DNA of 41,689 nt, from the NCBI GenBank assembly GCA_002726235.1, contig PBSN01000016.1, positions 1 through 41,689 on the forward strand, given 5' to 3'. Below the pieces are notes generated by a model. It was given only the letters and a program-made list of their open reading frames with translations, had not been told where the DNA came from and made no database searches. Positions within the stretch are counted from its first letter, which is position 1. Every line of letters starts with the position of its first letter. This stretch comes from Nitrospiraceae bacterium (GTDB taxonomy: Bacteria; Nitrospirota; Nitrospiria; Nitrospirales; UBA2166). The position numbers were made by a program, and so were the translations under genes. Below are positions 1,246 to 20,852 of this stretch, in pieces.

Positions 1246-2306
1246 GAACACTTAATCGTTACATTGGAATACACGTTAGCAAAGGATATCTTCTTGTTCT
1301 GCTCATCTTACTCTCGGTATTCAGCTTCTTTGCCTTCGTAGAAGCGTTAGATAATGTAGGAACCGGCCAATACAGATTGGGCGACGCGTGTCTCGCCATA
1401 CTACTCACTCTACCGCGACGAATCATCGAACTCGCACCCATCACAGCCTTGCTGGGTAGCGTCATCGCACTCGGACGACTCGCTAGCAGCAACGAGCTCT
1501 TGGCCATGCAAGCCTGCGGCGTATCGGCTAGGCGCATTTCACTCTCAACCTTGAAAACTGGGTTCGTGTTCATCCTTGCGATACTCATACTTGAATTCGT
1601 CATCGCGCCTCCACTCGAACAACTCTCGCAAACCCGTCACTCTGTCCTGATATCAGGAACCGACACACTACGAACCGAACAAGGATTTTGGTTTCGTAAC
1701 GGGAGAAATTTTATCAATATTAGGCACATCCAACACGGCAGAGTCCCTGCCGACATTGATATATATGAATTCAACGAACATGGACATTTGCATACCTTCA
1801 CGCAAGCTCGAAAAGCAAATATTCAACGTAATAACAAATGGGCACTCACGGATATCACCCAAACATATATCAAACAAGAAAACATCACGGTCCAACACCA
1901 CACAACTATCCATCGGGAGAATCTCCTGAGTCCGGAACAGATCAACATTCTCCTTCTTCCTCCTGAGAGTCTTTCTCCATCCGAGCTCTATCAATACGTG
2001 CAATACCTCAAGAAACACGGCCAGAACGCAGATCAACACAACCTCGCGCTCTGGAAAAAAGCCAGCATGCCCATAGCTACCAGTGCGATGATCGTGATGG
2101 CAATCCCGTTTGTGTTTGGGCCTTTACGCGTTGTCACCGCAGGTCGGAGAATTATGGTCGGGGCGATGGTAGGCATCGTGTTCCATCTGGGCAACCAAAT
2201 TGCGGGCAATATCGGACTGCTCCTTGAACTACATCCCGCGGTAATCACCATGACGCCAATTGCCGCCGTTCTAGGCGTTACGATGGTGCTATTACGCAAA
2301 ATTTAG
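1242..2306 (+). CDS. lptG: LPS export permease LptG
   Basis: This is the second YjgP/YjgQ-family permease, the partner of the preceding gene in the LPS transporter. The 354-residue protein starts at the ATG overlapping the lptF stop (MRTLNRYIG), followed by a hydrophobic helix, the conserved early segment LGSVIALGRLASSNELLAMQ near residues 65-90, a polar periplasmic domain, and three C-terminal hydrophobic helices. Length is typical for LptG. The last 15 bases are shared antisense with the 3' end of the convergent metallophosphoesterase gene, so there is no room for a terminator between the two. Neither lptA, lptB nor lptC lies in the window. Confidence 0.9.
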   Translation: MRTLNRYIGIHVSKGYLLVLLILLSVFSFFAFVEALDNVGTGQYRLGDACLAILLTLPRRIIELAPITALLGSVIALGRLASSNELLAMQACGVSARRISLSTLKTGFVFILAILILEFVIAPPLEQLSQTRHSVLISGTDTLRTEQGFWFRNGRNFINIRHIQHGRVPADIDIYEFNEHGHLHTFTQARKANIQRNNKWALTDITQTYIKQENITVQHHTTIHRENLLSPEQINILLLPPESLSPSELYQYVQYLKKHGQNADQHNLALWKKASMPIATSAMIVMAIPFVFGPLRVVTAGRRIMVGAMVGIVFHLGNQIAGNIGLLLELHPAVITMTPIAAVLGVTMVLLRKI

Positions 2307-3230
2307 AGACTGTTCAAGCGCTATAGGAGTACCCAACTCCATAAAACGTTGTTCTGCTGGAGAATAACCCCGAACCGAGAGTTGTATACTCCACGTCGAT
2401 ACCTGGCGAGTGAGGCGATATAGGTGGTATTGCGCCCCGCGATCCGGATGATGGCTTCTCGCTGAAGCAGCAGGTACACCAATTGCTGGAACGATGCGAC
2501 CCTGGGCTACTATCTGCCGTATTGATGTGCAATGTGCATGTCCATGCAAGACTAACTCTGCACCGCAACGTGCCACAACTGAACGAAAAGATGCATGATC
2601 GGTAAGTTGCTTCCGCCATGGCACCGTACCCGGAATCGGTGGATGATGGAGCAAGATGATACGAAAAAGACGACGTTCCCCAGTTTCAACGAGAACCCGT
2701 TCGAGAGCCTGTAGTTGGGAGTGGCCAATGCTTCCAGTGGCAAGAAATGGTGCAGATGGGTGTGCGGTCGATAGCCCGATGAAGGCAACCGAATCACGAA
2801 CCCGCAAGCTAGGAAAACATGCTTGGCGTTCACAACCTCCAGCGACTCCCGCAATATCTGAGCCCATATAGGGAATCCACAATGCAAGCGTACTGTCCCA
2901 GTCTGCCTCAACATACGCATCATGGTTTCCTGGAATGATGGTGACCTCAGACGGCATCCCAAGAGCATCAAGCCAATCTTTTGCCTCCTGAAACTCCTGT
3001 GGCAACCCTATATGAGTTAAATCACCAGTAACCACAGTATGATCTGGTTGCTGAGATTTTAAGTCCCGCACGAGCTCGGCAAGAATTTCCGGTCGATATT
3101 TGGCGCGCCGATTCAGGCGCCATGAGAGATACCCTAACACACGCTTACTGAGCAAATCCCGCGCCCTGACATTGTCGAGTGACGACAGATGAGGATCGGA
3201 AAGTTGTGCAATGGTAAATGTCTCTGTCAT
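2292..3230 (-). CDS. calcineurin-like metallophosphoesterase
   Basis: This is a 312-residue soluble dimetal phosphoesterase. All signature blocks are visible: SDPHLS (D12, H14), TGDLTHIG (D70), PGNHDAY (N102, H103), LLHHPP (H195/H196) and LHGHAH (H229, H231). There is no signal peptide, so it should be cytoplasmic. The substrate cannot be read from the sequence; the class III cyclic-nucleotide phosphodiesterase branch and lipid-related phosphohydrolases share this motif set. It is divergent from the lipid cassette that begins at 3384, sharing a 153-bp intergenic region, which makes a lipid substrate an idea worth holding but not shown. Its 3' end overlaps lptG by 15 bases on the opposite strand. 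Confidence 0.85.
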   Translation of the reverse strand: MTETFTIAQLSDPHLSSLDNVRARDLLSKRVLGYLSWRLNRRAKYRPEILAELVRDLKSQQPDHTVVTGDLTHIGLPQEFQEAKDWLDALGMPSEVTIIPGNHDAYVEADWDSTLALWIPYMGSDIAGVAGGCERQACFPSLRVRDSVAFIGLSTAHPSAPFLATGSIGHSQLQALERVLVETGERRLFRIILLHHPPIPGTVPWRKQLTDHASFRSVVARCGAELVLHGHAHCTSIRQIVAQGRIVPAIGVPAASARSHHPDRGAQYHLYRLTRQVSTWSIQLSVRGYSPAEQRFMELGTPIALEQSLNFA

Positions 3231-3383: not shown

Positions 3384-4625
3384 ATGACAATATTTGTACA
3401 TATCGTTGGAAATTCGCCGGTTCTACTCTGGGGACTCTCCTCCCACGAGCGATTGAAGCGCATGCTCCAAGAAGTTGGAAATGCAACGGTGATTGATGAC
3501 CTCGAGACAATTCCGACAGACAGCTCGCTGCTTCTCATTCGCGGCGATTACGTGTTTGATTCCCGCGTCCTCAACTCTCTCATCCATACTCCAAATGTGA
3601 TGCTTGAAATCTGCTGTGAGAATCGAGCATCTATCGTTGCAGCACATGTTCCATCACACTTGAAAGACGGTGCTCGCGACGTATTAAACGGCACCATGCG
3701 ACCCGATATACTACCACGCATCCATACGCGGACACCTGAGACATTGACATCGGCATATCACGCACAACTCAAAAAGTCAGACCCTCCCTTTGTACTCCCC
3801 ATTACTTTGGAACATCAGGCCGCATTGGAGAAAAAACTCTTTTCTGGAGCCTACAAAGGCATCACAGATCTTGTCACCAAATGGATATGGCCATATCCCG
3901 CCCAATGGGCAACCCTAATATGCGTCCAGCATGGAATCCGGCCGAATCATGTCACGATCACAAGCCTTGTCTTGGTGATAATCACTGGATGGTTGTTTCT
4001 TAACGGACATTATGGCTGGGGCCTCATGACCGGATGGCTGATGACATTCCTCGACACCGTCGATGGAAAGCTTGCACGTGTTACCGTCACATCAAGTCGG
4101 ATAGGGCATCTATTCGATCATGGCATTGATCTGATTCATCCACCGTTATGGTATCTCGCATGGGGGCTTGGACTCAGTGCATTTATCCCAGAGGCATCAT
4201 GGCTTTCGCTGAAAACAGTGTTAGGATTGATCGTTGGTGGATACGTTGTCGGACGCTTAATCGAAGGCTCATTCCAATTATGGTTAGGAGCATTTGGAAT
4301 ATTCTGCTGGCGTCAAATTGATTCGTATCATCGCCTCATCACTGCACGCCGAAATCCAAACCTCATCCTTCTGACAAGTGCGTCTCTCATTGGGCGACCT
4401 GACATCGGCCTCGTTGCTGTCGCGTTACTGACGATCATCTCGACCCTGGTCCTTCTAGTGCGTTTTGCTCTCGCGACCTACACGCGCCTAACCACAGGCA
4501 CACTTCATGCCTGGTTTGCCACGCTCGATGATATCTCGACAGACCAATCACTTGCCATCAGATTATTTACCACGCAACCCTCAACTCAAGTGACATCAGC
4601 GTCGGCTACTGGCCAAAATGAATGA
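3384..4625 (+). CDS. CDP-alcohol phosphatidyltransferase with N-terminal extension
   Basis: This 413-residue integral membrane enzyme should transfer a phosphatidyl or phospho-alcohol group from a CDP-activated donor. Residues 224-249 match the family signature exactly: D224, D227-G228, A231-R232, then G241, D245 and D249. It is preceded by the usual PNHVTITSL segment and surrounded by hydrophobic helices. The first ~140 residues are a soluble extension with an RGDYVFDSRVL stretch that resembles the acceptor part of sugar-nucleotidyltransferase folds but lacks a recognisable GxGTR nucleotide loop. It may therefore be a degenerate nucleotidyltransferase domain. The gene overlaps the following lipid kinase by 8 bases. 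The alcohol acceptor is unknown. Confidence 0.88.
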   Translation: MTIFVHIVGNSPVLLWGLSSHERLKRMLQEVGNATVIDDLETIPTDSSLLLIRGDYVFDSRVLNSLIHTPNVMLEICCENRASIVAAHVPSHLKDGARDVLNGTMRPDILPRIHTRTPETLTSAYHAQLKKSDPPFVLPITLEHQAALEKKLFSGAYKGITDLVTKWIWPYPAQWATLICVQHGIRPNHVTITSLVLVIITGWLFLNGHYGWGLMTGWLMTFLDTVDGKLARVTVTSSRIGHLFDHGIDLIHPPLWYLAWGLGLSAFIPEASWLSLKTVLGLIVGGYVVGRLIEGSFQLWLGAFGIFCWRQIDSYHRLITARRNPNLILLTSASLIGRPDIGLVAVALLTIISTLVLLVRFALATYTRLTTGTLHAWFATLDDISTDQSLAIRLFTTQPSTQVTSASATGQNE

Positions 4626-5682
4626 TCTGTTACACGAAGCCGTCCTTGACGGGCCTGACCGCTCCGCAACCGTTTATTCAGCAACGATTTCACGTCCAAC
4701 GCCAGTAGTCAAAACAATGCGCCTTGGGGTGCTTAATAACCCTCTAAGCGGCGGGAATCGAAATGGTCTTGGCGCCATCTACACAATCCAGAAGGAATTC
4801 CCGCAGATTCCACATCGCGAAGTCAACACACCGGAAGACATTTCCGCCGCTCTGTCAGACTTTGCTGAACGAGGAATCAATCTGGTCGCGATTAACGGCG
4901 GTGATGGAACCATCCAAGCAGTACTCACCTCATTATTCCGGAAATTGCCATTCCAATTCCATCCCCTACTCAGTGTACTCCGAGCAGGAACCACAAGCAT
5001 GATTGCTGGAGATGTTGGACTGTGTGGTTCTCGTGTTTCGGCGATGAGAAAACTGTGTGCCTGGGCAAAGGCCACACACCACAGCACACCTCACTCTGAG
5101 ATCATACGCCGACCAGTGCTTCGTATTCACACAGCGCATGCACAAGAACCACTCTTCGGCATGTTCTTCGGAACAGGAGGCATTACTCAGGGCATTGAAT
5201 TTTGTCGAACTAGGATTCACTCCCTTGGCCTTCGGGGGGAAATTGCTGCTGGACTCGCAACGGCGATGCTGCTCGCATCCCTGCTACGCAAACGATCTAG
5301 CTACGTCACACCGACACGTATTTCCACAAGCGTCAACCAATCCCCGACAACACAGTACGAATGTCTTATTGTGATAGTGAGTACATTGGAGAGACTCTTT
5401 GCCGGCTTACGTCCGTATTGGGGAAGGGAAATCGCTCCGTTGCATTACACCGTTCTTCGCGCAAACCCCAAGTACATGTGTCGCACACTCCCGGCATTAC
5501 TACGCGGCCGCAAGCACCCATATGGAATACCTGAACACGGCTATATTAGCCATAATGTGGAACGCGTTTGTCTGCAACTAGAGTGTCCATTCACACTTGA
5601 CGGCGAACTTTTCGGCATCAACGGTGACTCCCATCAGGTCGTCGTTGAGAGCGGAGGACACGCATCTTTCATCCGCATATAG
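4618..5682 (+). CDS. diacylglycerol/lipid kinase family protein
   Basis: The 354-residue protein is a DAGK-catalytic-domain lipid kinase (YegS/BmrU/DgkB type) that phosphorylates a lipid hydroxyl such as diacylglycerol or a sphingoid/undecaprenyl-like acceptor. Visible marks are NPLSGG at 41-46, the nucleotide-binding NGGDGT at 93-98, an FFGTGG loop near 180 and the C-terminal FTLDGELFGI typical of this fold. The first ~34 residues are a family-atypical extension. It starts within the previous gene (8-base overlap) and is 10 bases from the next, so all three cassette genes are probably co-translated. Phosphatidic acid as product is the natural guess from the neighbours. Confidence 0.87.
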   Translation: MNDLLHEAVLDGPDRSATVYSATISRPTPVVKTMRLGVLNNPLSGGNRNGLGAIYTIQKEFPQIPHREVNTPEDISAALSDFAERGINLVAINGGDGTIQAVLTSLFRKLPFQFHPLLSVLRAGTTSMIAGDVGLCGSRVSAMRKLCAWAKATHHSTPHSEIIRRPVLRIHTAHAQEPLFGMFFGTGGITQGIEFCRTRIHSLGLRGEIAAGLATAMLLASLLRKRSSYVTPTRISTSVNQSPTTQYECLIVIVSTLERLFAGLRPYWGREIAPLHYTVLRANPKYMCRTLPALLRGRKHPYGIPEHGYISHNVERVCLQLECPFTLDGELFGINGDSHQVVVESGGHASFIRI

Positions 5683-5692
5683 AAAACCGACC

Positions 5693-6643
5693 ATGACCAT
5701 TCCGCATACTCTTACCACAATCATCAGTGAGCAGCAGACACATGCCATTCTTCCAGCAACCCAATGTGCCATTGATCAGATCCTCACACGTTATGGCCAC
5801 GCGGTCCAAGCAATCATCTTTTACGGGTCCTGTTTGCGACAATCAACCGACAGTGGCCTCATTGATCTCTATGTCCTTGTCGATCAGTACACATCCATAC
5901 ATGGCGTACGGCTCCAAGCCATACTAAACAAGCTCCTTCCACCTAATGTCTACTATCTAGAATTCCCATTGGGTGACAAAACGATTCGTGCGAAATATTC
6001 CATAGTGTCGCTGTCAGATTTTCAACGTTGTACGACCATGCAATGGTTTCATTCGTATTTCTGGGGCCGATTTGCCCAGCCCACAGAACTCGTGTTTGCT
6101 CGCGACCATCAAGTGAAAAAAACTGTGCAGATGGCAATGGCACAAGCGGTCATGACACTTATGGCTAGAACACTGCCATATATGCCACGTAATTTTGAGG
6201 CACGAGACATTTGGCAAAAGGGACTCTCCCTTAGCTATCAAGCTGAACTACGCTCAGAACGACTAGGGAGCATTTCACGTCTTTTCGATGCGGCCTCTGT
6301 CTACTATGAGCGCGTGACACAAGCCTGCCTTATGACAATGCCCTTTCACGTCACACAACACACAACTGCCTCTCACACCCATTACCATGCCACGATCCCA
6401 CAGAGCGTTCGATCCAAGAACAAATTGGCATGGACGATCAGAAAACTGCAAGGCAAAATCCTCTCCCTACTTCGACTGCTTAAAGGACTCTTTACCTTTC
6501 ATGGCGGAGTCGACTATATCCTTTGGAAAGTAGAACGGCACTCTGGAATTACTGTGGAGGTTACGCCACGACTGCGCAAACATCCTCTCCTCGTTGGCTG
6601 GGTCGTATTCTGGAGACTCTATCGCCGCGGAGCATTCCGTTAG
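5693..6643 (+). CDS. Tam41-like nucleotidyltransferase (putative phosphatidate cytidylyltransferase)
   Basis: The 316-residue protein starts at the ATG 10 bases after the lipid kinase; an upstream in-frame start at 5597 would overlap that gene heavily. It has a nucleotidyltransferase opening, IIFYGSCLR (41-49) followed by LIDLYVLVD (56-64). The order of later blocks recalls mitochondrial CDP-diacylglycerol synthase Tam41/TAMM41: PPNVYY (83-88), KYSIVSL (101-107), W118, and GRFAQP (125-130). From memory, Tam41 proteins carry YGS, a VDL/IDL strand, GVYYN, KYGVIS and AGRLHKP in the same order. The predicted reaction is CTP plus phosphatidate to CDP-diacylglycerol. The location between a lipid kinase and bioD, downstream of a CDP-alcohol phosphatidyltransferase, fits this role. 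The alternative is another minimal nucleotidyltransferase; only a profile search can decide. Confidence 0.65.
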   Translation: MTIPHTLTTIISEQQTHAILPATQCAIDQILTRYGHAVQAIIFYGSCLRQSTDSGLIDLYVLVDQYTSIHGVRLQAILNKLLPPNVYYLEFPLGDKTIRAKYSIVSLSDFQRCTTMQWFHSYFWGRFAQPTELVFARDHQVKKTVQMAMAQAVMTLMARTLPYMPRNFEARDIWQKGLSLSYQAELRSERLGSISRLFDAASVYYERVTQACLMTMPFHVTQHTTASHTHYHATIPQSVRSKNKLAWTIRKLQGKILSLLRLLKGLFTFHGGVDYILWKVERHSGITVEVTPRLRKHPLLVGWVVFWRLYRRGAFR

Positions 6644-9811: not shown

Positions 9812-10687
9812 TTACGTCTGCCGTTTTTGATCTGTCATATGGGGCAGGAGAATTTCGAGGACACCAAGATAGCCACTGTTTGCGGCCATATTAATAGGTT
9901 GCATGCCGAGTTGAGAGCGCGCCAACACGTTTGCCCCTCCGGAGATCAGACGCTTCACGATAGCAATATAACCTTTACCAGCGGCGTGATGTAATGGGGT
10001 GAACCCTTCTTCATCAGACATGTCCACCGAAACATCAGCATGAAGTAAGAAGCCTACCATGTCCATATGTCCAACCAAACACGCCAACGCCAAAGGCGTT
10101 TGTCCCTTAGTGGTTACGGCGTTCATATCAGAAGACGCGGTACTGAGCAATCGGGCCACGGGCACATGCCCACCCAATGCCGCCGAATGGAGCGGGATAA
10201 AGCCGTCATCGTTGGTCCCATGAACGAAAGCTCCATTTTTGAGCGCCAAATCCACAAGCTTTATGGCACCTTGTATCGCAGCCATATGCAACAGCGACAA
10301 TCCAGTATCAGTGGTGAGGGAAATATCCGCTCCCTTTTCAAGAAGCAACGCGGCAATCTCGTGATGTCGCCCATGCGCGGTCAGATGCAACGAGGTAAAT
10401 CCAAACTGATCTTTAGCATTGATATGGGCGCCCGCTTCGATAAGCAGCTTCACAACTTCCCTATGCCCATATTCCGACGCGAGATGCAGCGGCGACATGC
10501 GTCCATGGATCTCGAAATCGTTGACAGTTGCGCCTTGAGCAATCAGCGTCCCCACCAACGGAGTGTCCCCACGCCGAGCAGCATCATGCAATGGCCCAGG
10601 AAAAGCATCCTGCGGCAAAAAGACCACTAAGAATGCGAGAATTACCAAACGACCTGTCACACTTTCCCGCATAGGCTCGCAACTCAT
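9812..10687 (-). CDS. secreted ankyrin-repeat protein
   Basis: This is a 291-residue protein with an N-terminal signal peptide (hydrophobic VILAFLVVFL, cleavage likely before GPLHDAA) followed by eight consecutive ~33-residue ankyrin repeats that fill the rest of the chain. Each has the G-x-TPLHxAA-x-xGH-x-x-(V/I)-x-x-LL frame; the first and last are degenerate. It should act as a binding scaffold in the periplasm or outside. The ATG overlaps the stop of the upstream gene as ATGA (10684-10687), so the two exported proteins are made together and may bind each other. An in-frame ATG five codons in (10672) gives a cleaner signal peptide. The ligand is unknown. Confidence 0.88.
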   Translation of the reverse strand: MSCEPMRESVTGRLVILAFLVVFLPQDAFPGPLHDAARRGDTPLVGTLIAQGATVNDFEIHGRMSPLHLASEYGHREVVKLLIEAGAHINAKDQFGFTSLHLTAHGRHHEIAALLLEKGADISLTTDTGLSLLHMAAIQGAIKLVDLALKNGAFVHGTNDDGFIPLHSAALGGHVPVARLLSTASSDMNAVTTKGQTPLALACLVGHMDMVGFLLHADVSVDMSDEEGFTPLHHAAGKGYIAIVKRLISGGANVLARSQLGMQPINMAANSGYLGVLEILLPHMTDQKRQT

Positions 10688-18278: not shown

Positions 18279-20852
18279 TCAGCCGCCACCTATTGCACGG
18301 ATGAGCATATTGTTACGCTCATTCCCCTCCACAACCGCGTCACCATCATCAATAACGATAATCGCGAATTTGTCGACGAGAGATTCGAGCTCGCGAACTT
18401 TAAATTTCCGTATTCTCGGCTCAAGAACTTCTACTTGAAATGATTGTCGCGCCGGCCGATCATTATCATCAAACACATTGTCATCGGACACAAACAATGA
18501 CACGAAAAACGGTGCAATATCCGCACTCGCTCCAAAATTTCCAATATTCAGCTTCACGACAAGCTGATCTCCAGATGCCTTGACTTTATGTTTAAACTTC
18601 ATAATTTCAGCGGAAAGGTCAGGCAAACCAGCTTGTTCAACGTCAGTAATCTTTAGAATAAAAGCATCACTTTCCCTTCCAAATATTTCCTGAACCGCAT
18701 CAGTCGTTGGAAAGTCAACGGACGTTGTTTTTCCTGCGATATAGGCATTTCCACCACGATCAACAATAATCGAGGTCCCAACATCATCACTCCTACCCCC
18801 AATATACGTGGAATACAAAAGTAGTTCGCCATCCGAATGAAGCTTTGCAGCAAATGTTTCTCCGTCAAAAATCCCGCCATTTTTTTCCTCTTGCACCGCA
18901 TTCATGACCGGGAAATCATCGGAAGTCGTCCGACCAGTAATATAGGCATTACCCGAAACATCAAGCGCAATGCTGTTGCCAATGTCATCACGTTGTCCAC
19001 CAACATAAGTGGAAAAGATAAGAAATTCTCCAGTAGGCGCGAGCTTCAATACAAAGGCATCACCATTTCTTGCCACATTATTTGACCCAAAACCTGGCTG
19101 CAACACCCCTTCTGTCGTGGGAAAATCCCTTGAGCGAGTACCACCAACAATGTACCCGTTCCCCGCACTATCAAGGGCCACCCCACGGCCTATATCGTCG
19201 CCTTTACCCCCTAGGTAACTGGAATACTCAAGCTGTGTTCCCTCAGAATTGAGTTTCACGATAAACGCATCATCCCGCCCACCCAAAACCGTTTGCACCG
19301 ATTCAGCGGTTGTCGGAAAATTTTCTGAATCTGTCACACCAGTAACAACGACCTGACCAAAAGAATCGACGACAATTGCTTCCCCTTGATCATCACCAGC
19401 TCCCCCGAGATAGGTTGAATAGAGCAAATCGGTTCCACTCGCATTAAGGCGGGTGACAAACGCATCATCCTCGCCACCGGATTGAGGTTGTACCGCCGCA
19501 TCGCTCGTCGGGAAATCTTCCGAACCTGTACGACCTGTCATAAACGCCTCACCCAAAGAGCTCACCGTAATCCCAAGCCCAATATCGCTCTCACTGCTTC
19601 CCAGAAAAGTGGAATAGATGAATGCGCTGCCCTCTGGATTCAACTTAAACGCAAATGCATCAACACCTCCATTCATCCTTGTCTGAAACGCACCAGCAGT
19701 AGCCGGAAAGTTTTTTGAGAACGTGCTTCCCACAACATACACCGCTCCATTCGCATCGACCGCCATGTCATTTGCAACATCAATGTCATGGCCGCCAATA
19801 ACTGTTGAGTAGATCAACTCATTTCCCTGTGACGTGAACTTGGCAACGAACACATCTTGCACACCAGCTCCTGTTGGCTGCAGCGAACTCTCAGTCGGGA
19901 AACCGCCGTTGGTTGTTCCTGCTACAAACACGTGTCCATTGGCATCTAATCCGATTCCAGCTCCATGATCAAGACCATTGCCTCCGAGATAGGTTGAATA
20001 GAGCAACACAGGATCAATCACAAGAGGTTTTGTTCGATCAAAGGCCGCAACATGAAATCTGACGTTCCCATCATTCGTAATGCGGTATCCCCCCTTGATC
20101 GGCACTCGGGTCCGAGTGACACCATCCCCAGTTGGCGATTCGGTTACGTCTTGGTAAATCACCGGCTTCTGATAGATTAGGCGCGCTCCTGCAACCGACA
20201 ACACGAGATTTCCTCCACGATCAATCGCCATCGTGTCGACACCATCAAAACCTATGGTAACGTCATGAGGATTGGCACCCGATTCAACAATGACATCATA
20301 TTCAAAATGTCCTTTGTTTCCGTAATAGACCATGTGAATCCCAGGGTATACCTCGTCATACCGCACCCTGGCATACATCGGAATGTCGGTGTGCCAGCGC
20401 GCAGGATCACTACCTCCCAAATAATGGTATTTGCCGTGTAAGGGATCTAGCCCCTTAATAGTTGGAGAAGGGTTGGCTCCAATAAATCGCATCCGAAGCA
20501 TAGACGAACGAGGTGAATTCTGCGTGATTGATCCAGACAGCGCTTCATGAGGTGGATCGAAAACGAACACCCGCTCGGAGGAGGAAAGTAACAGAGAACC
20601 TCCCCGCTGCTGAGAGAAAAACTTCACCTCAGAGTTGAACTGCCCATGGTTTGCTTGGAAGGTCACCGGCAACGTGGTCGCATTCATTGCCATCACTGGT
20701 ATCGTTTCCATACTCCACGACGTCGTTGGAAGACTCACAATCCCTCCAAACAACATGACAACACCCATTCTGCGTGTGAAGACAGACAAGGCCGCGACAT
20801 CCCAATAGGACACTTGCCTCATCACCATCCTAAACACCCGAACACCATCCAT
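18279..20852 (-). CDS. large secreted SBBP-repeat protein with C-terminal CARDB-like domain
   Basis: The 857-residue protein has a signal peptide (MGVVMLFGGIVSLPTTSWS). A ~220-residue N-terminal domain follows, typical of SBBP proteins, containing FQANHGQF, HYLGGSDPARWHTDIP and YPGIHMVYYGNKGHFEYDV. Then come seven beta-propeller-like repeats built on LLYSTYLGG-x3-DDxG-x-x-I-x-(L/V)D-x-x-GNxY(I/V)xGxT-x-S-x-DFPTT, spaced about 60 residues. The last ~110 residues resemble a CARDB adhesion module (LPDLSAEI...GNERNNMLI). Neither a transmembrane anchor nor a sorting tail is evident, so it is probably released or surface-attached. The first ATG overlaps truA by 23 bases; the ATG at 20828, just after the truA stop, is an equal candidate. 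Confidence 0.88.
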   Translation of the reverse strand: MDGVRVFRMVMRQVSYWDVAALSVFTRRMGVVMLFGGIVSLPTTSWSMETIPVMAMNATTLPVTFQANHGQFNSEVKFFSQQRGGSLLLSSSERVFVFDPPHEALSGSITQNSPRSSMLRMRFIGANPSPTIKGLDPLHGKYHYLGGSDPARWHTDIPMYARVRYDEVYPGIHMVYYGNKGHFEYDVIVESGANPHDVTIGFDGVDTMAIDRGGNLVLSVAGARLIYQKPVIYQDVTESPTGDGVTRTRVPIKGGYRITNDGNVRFHVAAFDRTKPLVIDPVLLYSTYLGGNGLDHGAGIGLDANGHVFVAGTTNGGFPTESSLQPTGAGVQDVFVAKFTSQGNELIYSTVIGGHDIDVANDMAVDANGAVYVVGSTFSKNFPATAGAFQTRMNGGVDAFAFKLNPEGSAFIYSTFLGSSESDIGLGITVSSLGEAFMTGRTGSEDFPTSDAAVQPQSGGEDDAFVTRLNASGTDLLYSTYLGGAGDDQGEAIVVDSFGQVVVTGVTDSENFPTTAESVQTVLGGRDDAFIVKLNSEGTQLEYSSYLGGKGDDIGRGVALDSAGNGYIVGGTRSRDFPTTEGVLQPGFGSNNVARNGDAFVLKLAPTGEFLIFSTYVGGQRDDIGNSIALDVSGNAYITGRTTSDDFPVMNAVQEEKNGGIFDGETFAAKLHSDGELLLYSTYIGGRSDDVGTSIIVDRGGNAYIAGKTTSVDFPTTDAVQEIFGRESDAFILKITDVEQAGLPDLSAEIMKFKHKVKASGDQLVVKLNIGNFGASADIAPFFVSLFVSDDNVFDDNDRPARQSFQVEVLEPRIRKFKVRELESLVDKFAIIVIDDGDAVVEGNERNNMLIRAIGGG

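Follow-up and report, generated by a model that had tools for sequence, protein, structure and literature searches.

A putative ceramide phosphoglycerate operon with a Tam41-family nucleotidyltransferase in a Nitrospiraceae bacterium

Introduction

Which lipid is made by the products of three tightly packed genes at positions 3384-6643 of contig PBSN01000016.1 from the Nitrospiraceae bacterium assembly GCA_002726235.1? The original prediction for this contig, of which the 41,689 nucleotides analysed are hereafter called the window, read the genes as a cytidine diphosphate (CDP)-alcohol phosphatidyltransferase, a diacylglycerol-kinase-type enzyme and a relative of mitochondrial Tam41, together forming a route to a phospholipid in which the Tam41-like enzyme replaces the integral-membrane CdsA. 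Here, we argue that the genes are very probably the cpgA-cpgB-cpgC operon of the phosphosphingolipid (ceramide phosphoglycerate, CPG/CPG2) pathway, because the gene set and order in this genome and its relatives match the published Caulobacter locus: the three-gene order was found, the ceramide genes are in the genome, and LptF2/LptG2 and phosphoesterase genes are linked to the cassette.

The Caulobacter genes CC_1152-CC_1168 encode two nucleotidyltransferases, bCerS, LptF2/LptG2 (CC_1156/CC_1155), the phosphoesterase CC_1158, and headgroup and ceramide enzymes, among them CpgA of the CDP-alcohol family (CC_1159), CpgB (CC_1160), CpgC (CC_1161) and the products of the ceramide genes CC_1162-1165 (PMC11324152). 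Caulobacter cpgABC correspond to CCNA_01217-01219 and cpgD to CCNA_01210. CpgB is a demonstrated ceramide kinase (PMC10331486), and CpgD makes CDP-glycerate (PMC12275187). In the published view CpgB and CpgC yield CPG, to which CpgA and CpgD add a second unit, CC_1159 being absent from Zymomonas, and the CofC-like nucleotidyltransferase CC_1153 was assigned to the CPG2 step (PMC11324152). CC_1161 carries a CDP-diacylglycerol-synthase-type InterPro domain, and in 2024 the authors suggested that CpgC might form a nucleoside-diphosphate-activated ceramide (PMC11324152); deletion genetics published in May 2026 put CpgC at the step that turns ceramide-1-phosphate into CPG, 'via an unidentified mechanism' (PMC13228409).

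Results

The cassette consists of three tightly spaced genes on the + strand, each with a Pfam match above the curated cut-off. The first gene, cpgA (3384-4625), encodes a CDP-alcohol phosphotransferase of 413 amino acids (aa; CDP-OH_P_transf, PF01066, 36.5 bits, cut-off 22) and overlaps by 8 bases with cpgB (4618-5682), which encodes a DAGK_cat lipid kinase and predicted ceramide kinase of 354 aa (PF00781, 38.8 bits, cut-off 23.6). After a gap of 10 bases follows cpgC (5693-6643), encoding a Tam41-family nucleotidyltransferase of 316 aa that is a predicted cytidine triphosphate (CTP):ceramide-1-phosphate cytidylyltransferase. Gene calls and Pfam matches thus agreed with the original prediction on the three packed genes, their coordinates and their motifs, including the CDP-alcohol signature DGKLARVTVTSSRIGHLFDHGID in the first protein.

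Pfam, a profile-to-PDB match and the predicted fold all identify CpgC as a genuine member of the Tam41 family, a link that the original prediction had drawn from motif order. CpgC matched Tam41_Mmp37 (PF09139) with 35.8 bits (cut-off 24, E 7.8e-9, profile positions 68-232 of 322). To the window protein we aligned 80 homologues found in a species-genome collection, and 58 of these 81 proteins matched PF09139 independently; none matched another Pfam family, such as the unrelated nucleotidyltransferase family that would have refuted the original prediction. The AlphaFold model of CpgC (pLDDT 86.5) was about equally well matched by two Tam41 structures, that from Firmicutes (7ecd, Z 19.0 over 228 residues) and that from fission yeast (6ig4, Z 18.2 over 224 residues), the comparison with the latter having been proposed with the original prediction. 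The next-best fold family, aminoglycoside nucleotidyltransferases, reached Z 10.1 over ~115 residues of the nucleotidyltransferase domain only, and Foldseek matched the model to the Tam41 fold with E 2.3e-11. When the 81-row profile was searched against PDB sequences, the top match was Tam41 6ig2 (E 4.3e-6), and Tam41 was not found among the PDB sequences with the single protein or an 8-row profile; all these E-values and Z-scores speak for kinship but say nothing about the substrate.

The motifs YGS, ID(L), NVYY, KYSIVS and GRFAQP are all present in CpgC, and residues Y44, G45, S46, D58, K101, R126, F127, Q129, Y182, R187 and E189 are invariant in 81/81 rows; the motif order is therefore not a matter of chance. 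Loss of the acidic residues had been expected to speak against a Tam41 relationship, and here the outcome was divided. The nucleotidyltransferase motif extending from Y44-G45-S46 to D58 (window 5822-5866, + strand) retains the first residue of the usual acidic pair, D58, in all 81 rows, but the second position is Y60 in 75 of them. A single acidic residue of the usual pair would fit Tam41, since Tam41 was reported to keep one of three canonical nucleotidyltransferase acidic residues (PMC11646218).

The N-terminal part of CpgA (residues 1 to ~155) is a truncated nucleotidyltransferase-like domain, joined to a membrane CDP-OH_P_transf domain, and all CDP-alcohol signature residues of the protein are kept. 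Its AlphaFold model (pLDDT 88.9) had AF2299 as the best PDB match (Z 23.9), followed by IPCT-DIPPS 4mnd (Z 20.9). Identity was 50-55% in seven other Nitrospirales genomes and 79-80% in two congeners, one of which carries its cpgA copy near a contig end with an internal stop. In three loci of Nitrospirales NPIRA bins (L044, L051, L052), CpgB-CpgC are flanked by two CpgA-like genes.

The genome (1.87 Mb, 91% complete), which its nearest named relatives place in Nitrospirales, also contains what, judged from sequence, is a complete ceramide gene set of spt, acpR, cerR, aasR and bCerS. The serine palmitoyltransferase (SPT) gene lies on contig C8 (C8:624136-625188); its product scored 620.9 bits with the NCBIfam serine palmitoyltransferase model (cut-off 500), and the proteins of solved structure closest to it are serine palmitoyltransferases. 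It begins the run spt-acpR-cerR-aasR, which has the gene order of CC_1162-CC_1165 and in which AcpR, an acyl carrier protein of 82 aa, adjoins SPT, and a CerR-like reductase and an AasR-like acyl ligase were assigned by family and position. At 89-92 kb of the same contig (L118:7223-10010), a bCerS-like acyltransferase, assigned by position and 56% identity to the gene of relatives, is accompanied by CofC-like and CpgD-like nucleotidyltransferases. These three genes directly adjoin a uppS-, cdsA-, dxr- and rseP-like run.

Protein-based scans of a collection of 84,980 species found 379 CpgC relatives, of which the best 80 were used for locus counts, 46 of these loci being informative for co-occurrence. 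A PF09139 profile search across the phylum matched 2 of 395 genomes, a count that understates the spread because many CpgC proteins found by the protein scans escape the Pfam model. The gene cpgB was present in 74/80 loci, with a median cpgB-cpgC gap of 21 bases, and accompanied cpgC in 46/46 informative loci; a metallophosphoesterase was found near LptFG and cpgBC in 50/80. At three loci (L098, L103, L113), CpgC lies near SPT/CerR/AasR or bCerS with no CpgB match within the locus stretch, and the kinase may be elsewhere. Relatives from several phyla unite bCerS, two nucleotidyltransferases, LptF, LptG, phosphoesterase, CpgA, CpgB and CpgC in one locus, with SPT/CerR/AasR where the flank reaches, and in a congener and other genomes of the order the ceramide, CofC-like and CpgD-like genes form a contiguous run with LptF, LptG, phosphoesterase and CpgA-C. 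The locus or its core occurs in Nitrospirota, Desulfobacterota, NC10, Planctomycetota, other phyla and on plasmids, which, together with the Tam41 fold and active-site evidence for CpgC, is what is new here. Phyla are intermixed in the CpgC tree, possibly through transfer, paralogy or errors of binning.

In the informative loci, CpgD-like genes and cpgA occurred together in 30, cpgA without CpgD in 6, CpgD without cpgA in 0 and neither in 10 (Fisher p 2e-6, with no correction for common descent). Where genomes of the 10 loci without cpgA could be searched, they gave short, weak CDP-alcohol transferase matches or none. Both the co-occurrence and the cpgA-less loci agree with the published scheme, in which CPG comes from CpgB and CpgC and the second unit from CpgA and CpgD. 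The CofC-like gene, counterpart of CC_1153, is kept in 10/10 informative loci without cpgA (e.g., L046, L047, L058, L068), and this nucleotidyltransferase may have a role earlier than the CPG2 step.

The locus also occurs on plasmids. Plasmid pPNP1 of Pseudomonas sp. JS425 (NZ_CP073662.1, ~65-86 kb; L128), of IncP type, carries an almost complete ceramide phosphoglycerate locus near an integron, with genes for an SPT-like aminotransferase, acyl carrier protein, epimerase, acyl-AMP ligase, LptF/LptG, kinase, CpgC, CpgA and a CpgD-like protein; given this plasmid and integron setting, the trait may move between bacteria. The conjugative plasmid pDCB2 of Diaphorobacter sp. JS3051 (NZ_CP065408.1, ~53-68 kb; L129) carries headgroup genes in which CpgC overlaps CpgA, as well as a second, fused CDP-alcohol transferase (402 aa, P0001) beside LptFG. 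The latter is a candidate for the step from CDP-ceramide to CPG; a distinct second CDP-alcohol transferase able to take CDP-ceramide was sought across the examined loci and found only on pDCB2.

Upstream of the cassette, the window encodes an LptF-type permease (127-1245, + strand; PF03739, 222.8 bits at 190-1212) and an LptG-type permease (1170-2306, + strand; PF03739, 221.1 bits at 1257-2300; equal position in relatives). Both are second genome copies, LptF2-like and LptG2-like, a further LptF/LptG pair being located at C8:389040-391223. They are followed by a calcineurin-like metallophosphoesterase (2292-3230, - strand; PF00149, 52.8 bits), the counterpart of CC_1158, and bioD lies downstream of the cassette. 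Further along, on the - strand, the window encodes a 291-aa ankyrin-repeat protein with a hydrophobic N-terminus (9815-10687) and an 857-aa protein with DUF7948 and beta-propeller (SBBP) repeats (18282-20852).

Discussion

In the pathway that we propose, SPT, AcpR, AasR, CerR and bCerS, encoded elsewhere in the genome, would make ceramide, and CpgB would act as the ceramide kinase that it is in Caulobacter. As its fold, motifs and position suggest, CpgC would then convert CTP and ceramide-1-phosphate to CDP-ceramide, and phosphotransfer to glycerate would give CPG. In line with the published Caulobacter proposals, CpgA would add a further phosphoglycerate from the CDP-glycerate of the CpgD-like enzyme, and LptF2/LptG2 would probably carry the product to the outer membrane. 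We lean towards the view that CpgC is a CTP:ceramide-1-phosphate cytidylyltransferase and that bacteria of several phyla make CDP-ceramide via a Tam41-family enzyme.

A lesser but serious possibility is that the cassette is cpgABC, but that CpgC, with its Tam41 fold, makes no CDP-lipid and instead joins phosphoglycerate to ceramide-1-phosphate directly or performs some other transfer. The Caulobacter deletions assign the conversion of ceramide-1-phosphate to CPG to CpgC (PMC13228409), no other enzyme is known for it, and some genomes have CpgB and CpgC with no full-length CpgA match anywhere. On the other hand, the invariant YGS, D58, K101, R126 and R187 fit a CTP-using family, and direct condensation was judged energetically not very favourable (PMC11324152).

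Several observations weigh against the reading of the cassette as cpgABC with a CDP-ceramide-forming CpgC. Caulobacter genetics place CpgA after CPG, leaving the step from CDP-ceramide to CPG with no assigned enzyme, and in the literature searched there was no mention of CDP-ceramide together with bacterial sphingolipids. The putative orthology to the Caulobacter Cpg proteins is drawn from family, gene order and published annotation, and a PF09139 search of the Caulobacter vibrioides control genome gave no match at E 0.001 or better, so that CC_1161 must be more divergent. Moreover, the ceramide genes are on a different contig from the cassette, and the pathway is thus split. The literature searched likewise contained no paper on sphingolipids together with Nitrospira.

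The route advanced in the original prediction can be taken as a dedicated glycerolipid pathway: diacylglycerol would be phosphorylated to phosphatidate by the kinase, converted to CDP-diacylglycerol by the Tam41-like enzyme instead of CdsA, and used by the CDP-alcohol transferase for a special phospholipid. On paper, these three enzyme classes would be enough, and the mitochondrial and Firmicutes Tam41 enzymes make CDP-diacylglycerol, as summarised in PMC11646218. Nevertheless, we consider this route improbable. An ordinary CdsA is encoded in its usual operon (C8:93330-94112; PF01148, 200 bits) beside genes reading as uppS and dxr, and on this ground we reject the replacement of CdsA by the Tam41-like enzyme. 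The genome carries the full ceramide gene set, which in relatives is linked to the cassette, the cassette itself matches cpgABC, and the Caulobacter homologues act on ceramide (PMC12275187, PMC10331486). The kinase is also not YegS/DgkB-like by the curated NCBIfam models, its best score being 23 bits against a cut-off of 118.65. That genome reduction has left the cassette decayed or without function, as the 1.87 Mb size and the pathway genes at three places might suggest, is hardly credible given that all window genes are intact and full length, the catalytic residues are conserved, and cpgA is closely similar in the two congeners (one copy having the internal stop).

With the cassette read as cpgABC, a testable assignment takes the place of a speculative phospholipid route, and Nitrospirota gain a complete gene set for ceramide phosphoglycerate, the cluster paper having discussed alpha-, beta- and gammaproteobacteria. 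Since ceramide phosphoglycerates help Caulobacter to survive without lipopolysaccharide, how widely the locus occurs matters for the outer-membrane make-up of major environmental bacteria. If true, CDP-ceramide would be a sphingolipid equivalent of CDP-diacylglycerol; the literature searched described no bacterial enzyme for CDP-ceramide, and Tam41-type activation would fill the CpgC step called 'unidentified' in 2026. Tam41-type activation to CDP-ceramide is a candidate mechanism for the one headgroup enzyme of unexplained chemistry.

Compared with the Caulobacter CPG2 locus, the ceramide, headgroup, phosphoesterase and LptF2/LptG2 set is the same, and cpgA-cpgB-cpgC are adjacent in the order of CC_1159-1160-1161. 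In contrast, in this Nitrospirota genome the genes lie at three separate places, relatives have an extra fatty-acid hydroxylase gene, and the window CpgC is above the PF09139 cut-off whereas no protein of the Caulobacter vibrioides control genome is. Bacterial Tam41 was already known before this analysis, the Firmicutes enzyme having been crystallised and shown to make CDP-diacylglycerol (PDB 7ecd; Kimura 2022, as cited in PMC11646218). CpgC shares with the mitochondrial (6ig4) and Firmicutes (7ecd) enzymes the fold, YGS, and the K-Y, GRF-P and SLSY-R blocks, and its single acidic residue at the usual pair would be in keeping with them, but it is only 15-18% identical to them, has a gene context of ceramide rather than cardiolipin, and has its own conserved basic C-terminal block (~residues 247-316). 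The two Archaeoglobus proteins AF2299 and IPCT-DIPPS 4mnd resemble CpgA in joining a nucleotidyltransferase-like N-terminal domain to a CDP-alcohol membrane domain, but their identity to CpgA is 14-18% and the predicted donor of CpgA is CDP-glycerate. Finally, the integral-membrane CDP-diacylglycerol synthase CdsA carries out a reaction of the same kind, but belongs to an unrelated family and is encoded separately in this genome.

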